Below are positions 3,775-33,742 of a DNA stretch of 33,742 nt, piece after piece. Below the pieces are notes generated by a model. The model made no database searches. It saw only the letters and a program-made list of their open reading frames with translations, and was not told the DNA's origin. The first letter of the stretch is position 1. Each line of letters starts with the position of its first letter. Where the stretch lies: positions 1-33,742 of IMG/VR virus record IMGVR_UViG_3300008117_000168; one strand, 5' to 3'. The DNA comes from a virus. The position numbers and the translations under genes were made by a program.

Positions 3775-4446
3775 TTAGGTTTCTTGAGTTTCTATCCAGG
3801 AATGAAGATTTGCCAAATGTTCTTCATTCAAACATAATAACTGTGGAAAAACATTTAACCACAAGTAATCGACACCTGGTACGGTTGCTTTAATTGACAA
3901 AGCAGCTGGTCCTTCTCTTAGTAGATCAAAAGTACAAGTAGCACCATTTACCACATATGTTGATTTTTGAGATGCACCTAGACCATTGATAGAAATGGTA
4001 TCAGAATTGTCACCTGTTGTGTTGTTTTTAATTCTTATATTTTGAATTTCTTCACAAATATTATGGTTTTCATCATAAACACCAACTTTCAAGGTAATGC
4101 GATTGTTTTCACCATATATCTTCTTCAGGTTTGTGTCATAATATGTGTGGTCAAGCAATTCTACCTGTAATTGTTTTAAATGCACAGTTCTATTGTCATT
4201 ATCTAAAAAAGCCATCATTTCTTTATTGTTAATACTCATACTTAACATAGTATATTCTTCTTTTGTTAAGTTCTGAAGGTGGTATGAAGGCCATCCAGCA
4301 CCATCGTTCAGTCCTTCAACAGGAACAATGAAACCAACAAAACCAGTAATATGTCTATTTTCTGGATTAACATATACAGTATAATTTTTTCTTGGATCAT
4401 ACTGTTGTTCAACAGCAATTTCCGTAACTTGTTCAAATTGTGACAT
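3775..4446 (-). CDS. Unrecognised beta-rich protein next to the U32-like gene
   Basis: I do not recognise this 223-residue protein. It has no signal peptide or membrane segment. The N-terminal half is mixed polar with an Asn- and Glu-rich character. The C-terminal part looks like a beta domain: YVVNGATCTFDLLREGPAAL, then KATVPGVDYLWLNVFPQLL. It starts three bases after the stop of the U32-like gene, with an AAAGGTAA ribosome-binding site, and is followed by the structured gap. The pair therefore looks like a two-gene unit. It could be a virion protein, a fibre-assembly factor or a partner or substrate of the U32-like protein. None of these can be chosen from sequence. Confidence 0.7.
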   Translation of the reverse strand: MSQFEQVTEIAVEQQYDPRKNYTVYVNPENRHITGFVGFIVPVEGLNDGAGWPSYHLQNLTKEEYTMLSMSINNKEMMAFLDNDNRTVHLKQLQVELLDHTYYDTNLKKIYGENNRITLKVGVYDENHNICEEIQNIRIKNNTTGDNSDTISINGLGASQKSTYVVNGATCTFDLLREGPAALSIKATVPGVDYLWLNVFPQLLCLNEEHLANLHSWIETQET

Positions 4447-4449
4447 TTT

Positions 4450-5460
4450 TTACCTTTTTAACCTTGGAAACAATTTAATTAATACATCATCACATAAAGT
4501 ACATTCTGTACCACAAACATTTTTACAATTTTCTGTAACTTTATTAAATCCTACATCAGTCAATTCATCCGCAGAAGTGTTCATCAATATATTTGGCGGT
4601 TTAGTTGAAAATAGGTCTTTTAATTGAGCACTACTATCTTCATACATATAAGCTTTGGTCAATTTAAGCCATTTTTCAATTGGAACACCACGACCAGCAA
4701 GTTTATATATATCAACTAAATCATCAAACTTCTGTAAATTATTTGGTAGAGTAAAAGCAGTTTTTAAGTATTGCTGAGGCTTTTCCTCAAAGTAATCCGT
4801 ACAACCTAACTTTTGGTGTACAATATTGATGACTTTCATATTTGATTTCTCATTGGTTTGAGCAATCATCATGTCATCTATATTCTTCCACAAACAATCC
4901 ACAATACAACCTTCATTTATCAACATGGTAATTGGTATATTCAGACTATTACAATATTCTCGGATCTTTTTCAACTCATCTAAATTACGGTTAAGTGAAC
5001 GATCTACAATAATACTGCGAATAGACAAAACTTCAACCAAAAACATCACATCTTTAAGTGTTCTTGGTATGTTATTAACTGAATTCTTTACTTCTAATGG
5101 TTTACCATCATTTCTCACATTCCTGAGAGCGCTCATAAAAAGATGATCTCTCATTACATAAGTGTTGTTCATGCAAACTATGTCAGGATCAACTTGTTTT
5201 ATGTGAGCAAGAACTTTATCTAATTCTTCATAAAACTCATTCGAATAATAATTACCATTAATTAAATATTGTAACTTGATACCATATTTTTCTCTAAGTT
5301 CATAAAGCTCTGAATAATTTTCAGGCTTAAGTGATAAAGCTCTGGCTGAGCCAAATGCATTATCAGAGAAATATATGTCATTAATTCTTTTTGTTGGTAA
5401 TTCTTCAATAACATCAATTATGCCAGGTGTGTATGGCAACGAAAACATCCTATTTTTCAT
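4450..5460 (-). CDS. U32-like TIM-barrel protein with Fe-S-type cysteines
   Basis: This 336-residue protein is unlike its fibre neighbours: it is soluble, mixed alpha/beta and cysteine-rich. Alternating helix-strand segments suggest a TIM barrel. NEGCIVDC (Cys185, Cys189), Cys220 and then YKLAGRG (252-258) followed by a helix match the order of conserved elements in U32 family proteins (NE-x-C-x3-C, Cys, 'FKI-x-GR'). Known members of that family (UbiU/UbiV, RlhA, TrhP) carry out or support O2-independent hydroxylation, and several bind a 4Fe-4S cluster. A second cluster, C312-x3-C316-x3-C320-x2-C323, closes the protein. The start at 5460 is preferred over Met5 because an AGG lies too close to Met5. 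The substrate is unknown. The family assignment is from memory of motifs and is moderately secure; phage function is open. Confidence 0.6.
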   Translation of the reverse strand: MKNRMFSLPYTPGIIDVIEELPTKRINDIYFSDNAFGSARALSLKPENYSELYELREKYGIKLQYLINGNYYSNEFYEELDKVLAHIKQVDPDIVCMNNTYVMRDHLFMSALRNVRNDGKPLEVKNSVNNIPRTLKDVMFLVEVLSIRSIIVDRSLNRNLDELKKIREYCNSLNIPITMLINEGCIVDCLWKNIDDMMIAQTNEKSNMKVINIVHQKLGCTDYFEEKPQQYLKTAFTLPNNLQKFDDLVDIYKLAGRGVPIEKWLKLTKAYMYEDSSAQLKDLFSTKPPNILMNTSADELTDVGFNKVTENCKNVCGTECTLCDDVLIKLFPRLKR

Positions 5461-5477
5461 AATGTACTTTCAATCAA

Positions 5478-7409
5478 TTATGGATTATAACCTAAATTCA
5501 AATATAAGTTTCTTTTCTTGGTTGCAAGTCCAAACCAACGGGCACCAATATTTGCATTGTGGTATGTAGCAACTGCATACACATTACATTCAATATTGTA
5601 GTGACCCCAATAAGGACTTGTAAAATCTGTTGTAACTGGTGTCATATTAACATAAAATGCCATAGTTGCGCCTGTACCTTTTGTAGAATTTCCTGGTGAA
5701 GAACCGCTCAACCATGGATAATCCCAAAAGTTAATTTCGTATATTTTAAACAATGCAGAGAAAGCTTGGAAATCGTAATTGCCTTTCCAATCTGGTCTTG
5801 TATTTGCTTCATTTTCAACTCTACCAGCAATATATCGTGTATTTGATAGACCGGCTGCATTGGCAACATCTATACGCATTGTAATTATAGCTCTATAACC
5901 ACCGCCACCCGTTGTATTATATGTAGAATTAATGACGCTATAATTTTGGCCAATTGTGTTTGCTTGACCGGTGATGCTGGCATTAGTTTGATTGTAAATA
6001 TATGATGGTGCGCCTGCTTGTGTAACACTTCCATCTAATGCATTTGTAGCAGTCAGCTGAATATCAAGAGAACCTAATACATTGATAAACAAATCAGAAG
6101 GTAAAGAAACAAGATCAGATAAACGAACAGCAGAATTTGCACCTAATGGTTCTGGAATATTAGATAATGCAGTTATAATTGCACTATTAACATAAGTAAC
6201 AACTGTTGTTGGTGGTGTGTTACCAGTAATCAATTGACTGGTTACATTTGTAATATTTACACCATTTGAAAAAAGATTTCCTGATGCGTAAATATTTCCT
6301 GCATTAATATTAGCTGATCTAAAAGAAGCATGATTAATGTCAATATTATTATTTGAATCAACTTCTGGTTCATAATTATAAAATGCATAAAAATCTGTAG
6401 TTCCAGATTTTCTAAAAAAACCAGCATGACGATTTGTTGCGCCATCATTATAGTTACTTACAAATCCAATATCATGTGTGTCTGAATAATAATTATTTGC
6501 ACCAAGATACATCAATGTGTCATTGGCTGTAATTGATGAAGTTAGAATTTCTGTTGTGGTGCCTTCAACAATTAAATTTCCTGTTACATTGAGATCACCA
6601 ATTTGTAATGCGGCATTGTCAATTTTTATAGAACCGTCAACTAATTTGATAGCTGCATTTCCAATATAAACAGATCCGGGACCAACATAAACAGAATGAA
6701 AAGGACTATTTGCAGAACCTAAATCATAAGTATTGGCAGTTGTTGGTAAAACATCACCCGAAACATAACCAGCATAATTGAAAACAGAACTTTGTGATAT
6801 CCATGTATTACCATTAACGGCAGAATACATCAGAATATTGTTTGCAGCACCAGGTGTTACTTCTTTTAATGGATTTAAACCATTACCAACTAACACCGAA
6901 TCAGGTGTTGCATTAATAACTTGTCGTGCTAATAATGTGTTATATGCTGTTACTATTCTTACAAAATCATTTTCTCTGGCCGGTATTTGAAGAATTATAT
7001 TTTCACCATCAGAAGCTTGATAATCTAGATTGCCTAATTGAACACCGTTAACATAAACATCAACATAACCTAAATCATACCTTTGAACTGGAAAAAGTGT
7101 TTGTCCAGAAGTGGCATAATATTCAGCTACTTGTCTAAATGTTTTTGGTGCTGCGATGCCTGAAGCTGGAATAGCAAGGTATCTTATTTGAATATTACTT
7201 GTGCCAGCTGCAGGTGGTGTGGCAAATTTTATATAAGTTCCATCGAAATAATAATCTTCTGGACTGATAACAGCTCCATCTATAACAACGATAGCTGAAA
7301 CAGGAGAACCAGGTTCAATTGTTGTCACAAATGAATCTAATACGCCGTTTCCACTAAAAGAATCGTAGTAATATTCTGCTATTAATGGTTTTGCGCCGAT
7401 GTAACTCAA
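5478..7409 (-). CDS. Tail fibre protein with tandem N-terminal modules
   Basis: This 643-residue protein starts with TTG (minus strand 7409-7407), preceded by AAAGGAA and a late-promoter box. Its N-terminus (MSYIGAKPL, SGNGVLDSF, NIQIRYLAIP) matches the start of the 470-residue fibre gene. A second, diverged copy of the same beta module follows (AEYYATSGQTLFPV, then VDVYVNGVQLG). Next comes a VGNGLNPLKEVTPGAANNIL module shared with the two neighbouring fibres, and a middle region with TGNLIVEGTTTEI. The C-terminal part (from about residue 490) is different, aromatic-rich and contains GGGGYRAIITMRID; it may be the receptor-binding tip. The role is inferred from modular architecture. Confidence 0.85.
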   Translation of the reverse strand: MSYIGAKPLIAEYYYDSFSGNGVLDSFVTTIEPGSPVSAIVVIDGAVISPEDYYFDGTYIKFATPPAAGTSNIQIRYLAIPASGIAAPKTFRQVAEYYATSGQTLFPVQRYDLGYVDVYVNGVQLGNLDYQASDGENIILQIPARENDFVRIVTAYNTLLARQVINATPDSVLVGNGLNPLKEVTPGAANNILMYSAVNGNTWISQSSVFNYAGYVSGDVLPTTANTYDLGSANSPFHSVYVGPGSVYIGNAAIKLVDGSIKIDNAALQIGDLNVTGNLIVEGTTTEILTSSITANDTLMYLGANNYYSDTHDIGFVSNYNDGATNRHAGFFRKSGTTDFYAFYNYEPEVDSNNNIDINHASFRSANINAGNIYASGNLFSNGVNITNVTSQLITGNTPPTTVVTYVNSAIITALSNIPEPLGANSAVRLSDLVSLPSDLFINVLGSLDIQLTATNALDGSVTQAGAPSYIYNQTNASITGQANTIGQNYSVINSTYNTTGGGGYRAIITMRIDVANAAGLSNTRYIAGRVENEANTRPDWKGNYDFQAFSALFKIYEINFWDYPWLSGSSPGNSTKGTGATMAFYVNMTPVTTDFTSPYWGHYNIECNVYAVATYHNANIGARWFGLATKKRNLYLNLGYNP

Positions 7410-32541: not shown

Positions 32542-33267
32542 ATGGCTTTACCTAAAATTGATGTACCAACTTATGAAGTTGAATTGCCGGTTTCTAAAAA
32601 GAAAATTAAATTTAGACCGTTTCTAGTCAAAGAACAAAAAAATTTACTGATGGCTATGGAATCATCGGATTCTATCACAGTACAGCAAGCAATTTCTGAT
32701 ATACTCAATAATTGTACACTAACAGACAATATCAATATTGACAAACTTCCAATTGTTGATATTGAATATTATTTTTTACAACTGAGATCAAAATCTGTTG
32801 GTGAGGTTGTTGAATCAAAATATCGATGCAACAATGTTGTTGACGATAAAGAATGTGGTAATATAATGGAACACAATCTTGATTTGACACAAATCAAAGT
32901 GCAACAAGATGAATCTGTTTCTCCAGAAATTCAATTAACAGATAAATTAATGATAAAGATGAAATACCCACAGTTTGGCATAGTAAAGGACTCTTTAATG
33001 TTGGAAGATATTAATGAAGTTACCTTTAATATGATTTCACAGAGTATAGAATATGTTTATGATGGTGAACAGTTTTACTATGACCACGAAGCACAACCAG
33101 GTGAAATGTTGGAGTTTGTAGAAGGTATGAATCAAGAACAATTTACAAAGGTTGAAAAGTTCTTTAATAATCTTCCAAAATTAAAAAAAGATATAGATTT
33201 AACTTGTAGTAAATGTGGTTTTAAACATAAAATTGCAGTAGAAGGCTTAGAAAATTTTTTCGGTTAA
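32542..33267 (+). CDS. 26: gp26-type baseplate hub/assembly protein
   Basis: This 241-residue protein fits the T4 base plate protein gp26 family (Pfam T4_baseplate). It has YEVELPVSKKKIKFRPFLVK then EQKNLLMAME, a central VDIEYYFLQLRSKSVGEVVE, and FVEGMNQEQFTKVEKFFNNL. Two cysteine pairs, C-x8-C near residues 94-103 and C-x2-C near 227-230, look like a zinc-binding knuckle. GGAG lies ahead of the ATG. The end (GLENFFG) reads through an A-AAT-TTT-TTC slippery sequence, so a longer -1 product is probable. A gp26-with-extension arrangement resembles the G/GT tail assembly chaperones of long-tailed phages. The role in assembly is inferred. Confidence 0.85.
   Translation: MALPKIDVPTYEVELPVSKKKIKFRPFLVKEQKNLLMAMESSDSITVQQAISDILNNCTLTDNINIDKLPIVDIEYYFLQLRSKSVGEVVESKYRCNNVVDDKECGNIMEHNLDLTQIKVQQDESVSPEIQLTDKLMIKMKYPQFGIVKDSLMLEDINEVTFNMISQSIEYVYDGEQFYYDHEAQPGEMLEFVEGMNQEQFTKVEKFFNNLPKLKKDIDLTCSKCGFKHKIAVEGLENFFG
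33240..33261 (+). promoter_or_regulatory. 26: Programmed -1 frameshift signal: SD-like element plus slippery heptamers
   Basis: The zero-frame codons are GAA AAT TTT TTC GGT TAA. Two overlapping X-XXY-YYZ heptamers are in the correct register: A-AAT-TTT (33252-33258) and T-TTT-TTC (33255-33261). AGAAGG (33240-33245) lies six to nine bases upstream and could act as a stimulatory Shine-Dalgarno, as in dnaX. The -1 frame is open only from 33231, and the zero frame stops at 33267, so the site lies within a 37-base overlap. No strong hairpin follows closely; AACGAA-CTT-TTCGTT (33302-33316) is about 40 bases away. Confidence 0.75.
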
Positions 33268-33449
33268 CTTTTCGTCATGACAATCTGAGAAATTATTACA
33301 AAACGAACTTTTCGTTAATGCAGCACCACAAATATAGTTTGACCGAACTTGAAAATATGTTACCATGGGAAAGAGATATTTACATAGCTCTGTTGATTTC
33401 GTTTATTGAAGAAGAAAATCAAAAAATACGAGAGAGACAGAGAAAATAG
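33261..33449 (+). CDS. -1 frame extension of gp26 (T-type assembly partner)
   Basis: In the -1 frame, 62 codons run from the slippery site to TAG. They encode RLTFRHDNLRNYYKTNFSLM, then QHHKYSLTELENMLPWERDI and YIALLISFIEEENQKIRERQ. This is a typical charged, helical, gene-like sequence. The first in-frame ATG (33318) has no ribosome-binding site and would lose the conserved-looking HDNLRNYYK part. The reading frame does not start independently upstream. It is therefore best read as the C-terminal part of a gp26 fusion, taking the place of gene 51 in T4 order (26-51). I do not claim it is homologous to T4 gp51, which is much longer. An N-P-W-E-R-E/D type box is common in such extensions, from memory. 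Confidence 0.7.
   Translation, partial: RLTFRHDNLRNYYKTNFSLMQHHKYSLTELENMLPWERDIYIALLISFIEEENQKIRERQRK
33266..33315 (+). repeat. Ten-base direct repeat after gp26
   Basis: AACTTTTCGT occurs at 33266-33275 and again at 33306-33315, exactly 40 bases apart. The second copy is part of a six-base-pair hairpin (AACGAA/TTCGTT). The interval is not a multiple of three, so the copies encode different residues in the extension. It may be chance or part of the frameshift region. Confidence 0.4.
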
Positions 33450-33452
33450 TAA

Positions 33453-33742
33453 ATGCCTAAACAAATTGGTGAACAAACCAAAAAGACCGTTGGCGTCTTA
33501 TTAGGAGGTAGTGGCGTAAATGCCAGTACCACCAAAGTCAATTCCATCTCACCAAAAATAACTACTGCTAAAAAAGTTGATGCGATAGATCCTTCTTTGG
33601 CTGGACTATCTGCTGTTCAATTACTTGGTTCAATATATGAAGAATTAAAAAAACAAGAAACAGCAAGACGATTCGAATCGGAGTTGGATAGTCGTTTTCA
33701 AGAAGAAATAAATCTTGAAGAAGATTTAAGACATAGAGAATT
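33453..33742 (+). CDS. Partial gene, possible tape-measure/hub protein N-terminus
   Basis: The frame is open from ATG to the window end: 96 codons plus two bases. It begins MPKQIGEQTKKTVGVLLGGS. Lys/Ser/Thr-rich and probably flexible sequence follows, then a helical part (LSAVQLLGSIYEELKKQE, LDSRFQEEINLEEDLRHRE). It starts four bases after the TAG of the extension frame, with only a weak AGAGAGAC-like ribosome-binding sequence. In T4-like and other tailed phages the tape-measure gene usually follows the chaperone pair, so this may be its start. The visible part is too short to confirm that. Confidence 0.65.
   Translation, partial: MPKQIGEQTKKTVGVLLGGSGVNASTTKVNSISPKITTAKKVDAIDPSLAGLSAVQLLGSIYEELKKQETARRFESELDSRFQEEINLEEDLRHRE

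Follow-up and report, generated by a model that had tools for sequence, protein, structure and literature searches.

Gene 26 of the phage studied here very probably gives rise to a short and a long tail-assembly chaperone by −1 ribosomal frameshifting at the slippery heptamer T_TTT_TTC, a reading drawn from sequence, in which the anatomy of the gene, the reading frame, its conservation, the missing start codons, the coding constraint and the homology to T4 gp26 and gp51 can all be seen directly. The analysis covered a stretch of 33,742 nucleotides from a viral record (IMG/VR IMGVR_UViG_3300008117_000168), hereafter the window, together with related loci from viral contigs and isolate genomes.

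Gene 26 and the −1 frame extension

Gene 26 (32542..33267, + strand) encodes a 241-residue product, the putative short chaperone form (TAC-N), which in profile comparisons matches the Pfam family T4_baseplate (PF12322, E 1.8e-59) and phrog_150 (E 6.3e-64), and to which both T4 gp26 and T4 gp51 are homologous. The 3' end of the gene reads GAA AAT TTT TTC GGT TAA, the last triplet being the zero-frame stop (33265..33267, + strand). An earlier note on this DNA had placed two in-register heptamers before that stop, and both are present: A_AAT_TTT at 33252-33258 and T_TTT_TTC at 33255-33261 (both + strand, in the gp26 frame), the latter one sense codon before the stop. As slip sites they fared differently among relatives, where T_TTT_TTC is conserved and A_AAT_TTT is in register in just 6 of 143 representatives, the codon elsewhere being AGT, GAT, TCT or GCT; A_AAT_TTT is therefore probably incidental. 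In the 10,981 codons of 28 window genes, a single in-frame T_TTT_TTC was counted, 3 nt before the gp26 stop, and the −1 frame that follows an in-frame T_TTT_TTN runs for 64 codons at gp26 and for no more than 10 at every other site in the window.

After a TAA at 33228-33230, the −1 frame stays open over 33231-33449 and spans the gp26 stop. Read after a slip, the extension (33261..33449, + strand; gp51-like, TAC-C) comprises 62 codons and a TAG stop (33447-33449), such that translation would add 62 residues (33261-33446) and give a predicted long form of 302 aa, with the N-terminal part common to the 241-aa and 302-aa forms; across the junction the −1 frame translates as ..FFRLTFRHDNLRNYYKTNFSLMQHHKYSLTELENMLPWERDIYIALL... 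The extension (P0001) hits phrog_634 at E 3.5e-29, a family named 'baseplate hub assembly catalyst', and also matches the C-terminal end of phrog_150. Differences between relatives 3' of the gp26 stop fall on −1-frame codon positions 1:2:3 in the ratio 3797:1540:11957, and synonymous codon differences outnumber non-synonymous ones three to one; by this measure the −1 frame after the stop shows the pattern of coding sequence. The absence of an independent start from this 62-codon frame, which had been proposed earlier, was borne out, the first ATG, GTG or TTG being the ATG at 33318.

Conservation of the slippery heptamer

Among 420 related loci gathered from viral contigs and isolate genomes, a gp26 match was found in 419 and the extension was recognised in 412; of the seven loci lacking it, one is T4 and six are contigs that stop no more than 24 bases from the gp26 match. 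The extension lies in the −1 frame in 412/412 of these loci, and T_TTT_TTN (N = C, T, A or G) is in register at the junction in 409. Dereplication at 80% yielded 143 representative lineages, and at 50% yielded 30. The first Phe codon, at which the slip would occur, is TTT in all 143 representatives against a background of 75% (P about 9e-19), and the codon 5' of it ends in T in all 143 (log10 P about −27), with both values indicative only, since lineages were treated as independent and residual relatedness was ignored; for the TTT slip codon alone, the 30 lineages give P 2.6e-6. The T-ending codon specifies Ser, Asp, Asn, Ala or Thr across lineages. Within the cluster to which the window belongs (cluster 1), codons −1, 0 and +1 show no synonymous change at all, the lowest value among 234 three-codon windows, where the gene mean is 0.41.

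The alignment of gp26 relatives thus returned a retained heptamer and −1 frame with synonymous-site constraint at the slip codons, as the earlier note had anticipated. Its central proposal, a gp26/gp26-51-like pair produced by −1 frameshifting, is well supported: relatives retain the frame, the heptamer, the lack of a start codon and the constraint on synonymous sites, and the extension is similar to gp51 at its C-terminus. Conservation on this scale independently confirms the predicted frameshifted chaperone pair in cyanophage-like T4 relatives.

Alternative origins of the extension

It is very unlikely that the extension is a separate small gene, of the kind annotated 'gp51' in many cyanophages, expressed from a start of its own such as the ATG at 33318 or through re-initiation coupled to termination at the gp26 stop. 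Many records carry this annotation (for example, P-SSM2 gp51, beginning just after gp26), and the ATG at 33318 is present in the window sequence and kept at that position in 74 of 78 readable near relatives; four close relatives, however, have ATA, ATT or GTA in place of this Met codon, and the conserved start of the extension domain, FFR(L/I).., lies upstream of nearly every candidate start. Start codons in the −1 frame 5' of the slip site (ATG, GTG or TTG) occur in 3/143 representatives, and 31/143 have a −1 stop no more than one codon away from the slip site. Downstream, −1-frame starts are scattered over many positions between lineages, such that the first possible start varies from one lineage to another and none is found within 22 codons in 10/143. 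The ATG at 33318, which sits well inside the conserved extension domain, was accordingly rejected as an independent start, being lost in some near relatives amid starts that scatter among lineages. A separate gene would also leave the invariant TTT TTN unexplained, and in T4 the extension and a gp26-like domain form one fused protein.

Still less likely is an alternative frame arising from slippage of RNA polymerase on the T run, with no part played by the ribosome. A T homopolymer is always there, reaching T7-T8 in 22 of 88 lineages; in the other 66, however, the run is just T6, which is short for known bacterial transcriptional slippage, and transcription would need neither the conserved register in the gp26 frame nor the Shine–Dalgarno (SD)-like element at 9–10 nt. 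Chance or sequencing error, whereby heptamer and open frame are meaningless or an indel has split one fused gene, has a negligible probability, for although the genome is AT-rich (35% GC) and holds 72 in-frame heptamers of all X_XXY_YYZ types in 28 genes, the identical arrangement at 412 loci, including isolate genomes of several families, refutes it.

Possible stimulatory elements and the proposed frameshift

Under −1 ribosomal frameshifting, most ribosomes would read gene 26 through to the TAA at 33265 and release the 241-residue gp26 (TAC-N), while a minority would pause over an SD-like AGAAGG and, on T_TTT_TTC (33255-33261), move one base backwards, with both Phe tRNAs re-pairing with TTT TTT. 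Translation would then proceed in the −1 frame from CGG at 33261 to TAG at 33447, generating a 302-residue TAC-NC with a gp51-like C-terminal domain. That ribosomes shift here, how often they do so, what the SD-like element contributes and that the products act as chaperones are inferences.

The AGAAGG reported earlier upstream of the junction is indeed present (33240..33245, + strand), 9 nt upstream of T_TTT_TTC, and is a probable stimulator. SD-like AAGG, GAGG, GAAGG or GGAGG motifs precede the heptamer in most of the 143 representatives, usually at a distance of 9–10 nt; GGG and GAG are preferred among the Gly and Glu codons that form them, with p about 1e-5 for each, and pairing of the motif with the anti-SD is stronger than a synonymous null (p = 1.7e-6). 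The pairing predicted in the window phage is weak (−3.3 kcal/mol), though the motif is kept and codon-selected in relatives. A search for downstream RNA structure gave nothing convincing in the window phage. Over 88 lineages, the region 3' of the heptamer is mildly more stable than controls (mean z −1.1 vs about 0 to −0.4), and in P-SSM2 a strong hairpin is predicted at 2510-2565 of the locus (L084; −15.6 kcal/mol), starting ~5 nt after the heptamer. A downstream hairpin was rejected as a general stimulator, being strong in P-SSM2-like loci, missing in the window and weakly enriched overall; frameshift stimulators may differ between lineages.

This organisation resembles that of Escherichia coli dnaX, where a slippery heptamer follows an SD-like stimulator about 10 nt upstream. 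The dnaX heptamer is A_AAA_AAG and is accompanied by a strong downstream hairpin, whereas the window phage has T_TTT_TTC and no clear hairpin.

Separate genes 26 and 51 in T4-type phages

The window gp26 is related to both T4 gp26 (208 aa) and T4 gp51 (249 aa), which also resemble one another: the end of T4 gp26 coincides with that of the frame-0 protein, and gp51 runs on into the extension, consisting of a gp26-like part and the extension domain. The short form in the window phage thus corresponds to T4 gp26, and its extension to the C-terminal part of T4 gp51. T4, RB69, CC31 and KP185 have a separate gene 26 and a full-length gene 51, two genes without a slippery site, in contrast to the one gene and −1 shift of the window phage. 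The gp26 Phe-Phe is kept in these four phages as TTC TTT or TTC TTC, so spelled without the heptamer, and no extension follows it in any of them; they provide a natural control, indicating that the heptamer tracks the frameshift arrangement and not the Phe-Phe residues. T_TTT_TTC and a −1 extension are present in two further members of T4's own family, Straboviridae, Cronobacter phage LPCS28 (L416) and Aeromonas phage AS-zj (L417), so that both strategies exist within this family.

Vladimirov, Gautam and Davidson (2022, Virology 566:9-15) reportedly describe frameshifting as conserved in several T4-like groups; the finding in the window is therefore not new in kind. For the window taken alone, the result is expected and not surprising, the trick having been described already in T4-like phages, although the phage itself is new and uncharacterised. 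The identification of gp26 as the T4-like tail-assembly chaperone is likewise already published (Vladimirov et al. 2022, as cited in a passage of PMC10885494), and the same passage of that paper, which describes PRFect, cites Vladimirov et al. 2022 for some T4-like phages having one short and one fused long gene with no frameshifting.

Junctions lacking a standard heptamer

A −1 extension without a standard X_XXY_YYZ heptamer is found in Ackermannviridae (genera Kuttervirus, Taipeivirus, Limestonevirus, Agtrevirus, Miltonvirus and Tedavirus) and in deep relatives (overall, loci L412, L413, L420-L425 and L428-L445), as well as in Pseudomonas phage Cygsa01 and Vibrio phage K369; a scan with the gp26 of K369 returned no match. 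All of these loci carry NTT TTC A before the gp26 stop, whereas the −1 codon that overlaps this stop varies, with ATG at some loci and ATT or ATC at others; the junction would be a non-standard slip site or a start that overlaps the stop.

It is conceivable, if somewhat short of probable, that the gp26 family has switched its way of making two chaperone forms more than once: Kyanoviridae and rhizobial phages, together with some Vibrio and some Straboviridae phages, would use T_TTT_TTN frameshifting, Tevenvirinae would rely on gene duplication, and Ackermannviridae and related phages on the heptamer-less −1 extension.

Proposed chaperone function and the downstream gene

The hub assembly chaperones of T4 include gp26 and gp51, both of poorly understood role, and gp51 is required yet absent from the particle (PMC3004832). 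The two-form reading would link these two T4 hub chaperones to tape-measure chaperoning. Structure prediction, carried out on viral-contig sequences for the short form of gp26, gave a model with a pLDDT of 88.9, the top PDB match of which is the HK97 tail assembly chaperone gp13 (2ob9); the match is weak and not significant (E 0.96, probability 0.51, ~60 residues). A sequence search of solved structures returned no match.

The functional analogy is with phage lambda, for which Xu, Hendrix and Duda reportedly described in 2004 the −1 frameshift giving gpG and gpGT, together with similar tail chaperone pairs. In lambda, as is proposed for the window phage, one gene supplies a short and a long chaperone through a −1 slip shortly before the first frame ends, the extension lying in the next frame and ahead of downstream tail genes. 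The lambda heptamer is G_GGA_AAG, differing from T_TTT_TTC in the window phage, and no sequence similarity between the systems is expected. By this analogy, the short and long forms of gp26 would form a coat on the tape-measure protein and bring in the subunits of the tail tube.

The systems differ in the gene 3' of the extension, which in the window phage carries a lysozyme domain and is not an identified tape measure. Its start only is within the window (33453..33740, + strand), from which it runs off; in a near-identical locus (L002; region 3912-6617) the gene is complete (480 aa), and its product combines a Pro/Ala-rich stretch with a phage-lysozyme domain. The earlier statement that the product precedes the tape-measure gene was not established here, because the next gene carries the phage-lysozyme domain. 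The large gene just downstream in two other loci (L410 and L414) weakly matches tape-measure families. The second protein after the extension features the motif KARMTG.KEKFDPLNIAKFLTGGS, which recurs in genes after gp26 in two relatives (L011 and L042).

Annotation of the extension

What many cyanophage records list after gp26 as a 'gp51 / baseplate hub assembly catalyst' gene is most likely no gene of its own, and a good share of these records therefore need a joined CDS. That the extension is easily missed in annotation, as the earlier note held, is true of several records in which nothing is annotated; elsewhere it has often been labelled, as a separate 'gp51'. In P-SSM2 and others, the annotated gp51 begins after the conserved FFR start, and the −1 extension is unannotated in isolate cyanophage genomes including L083, L086 and L087.
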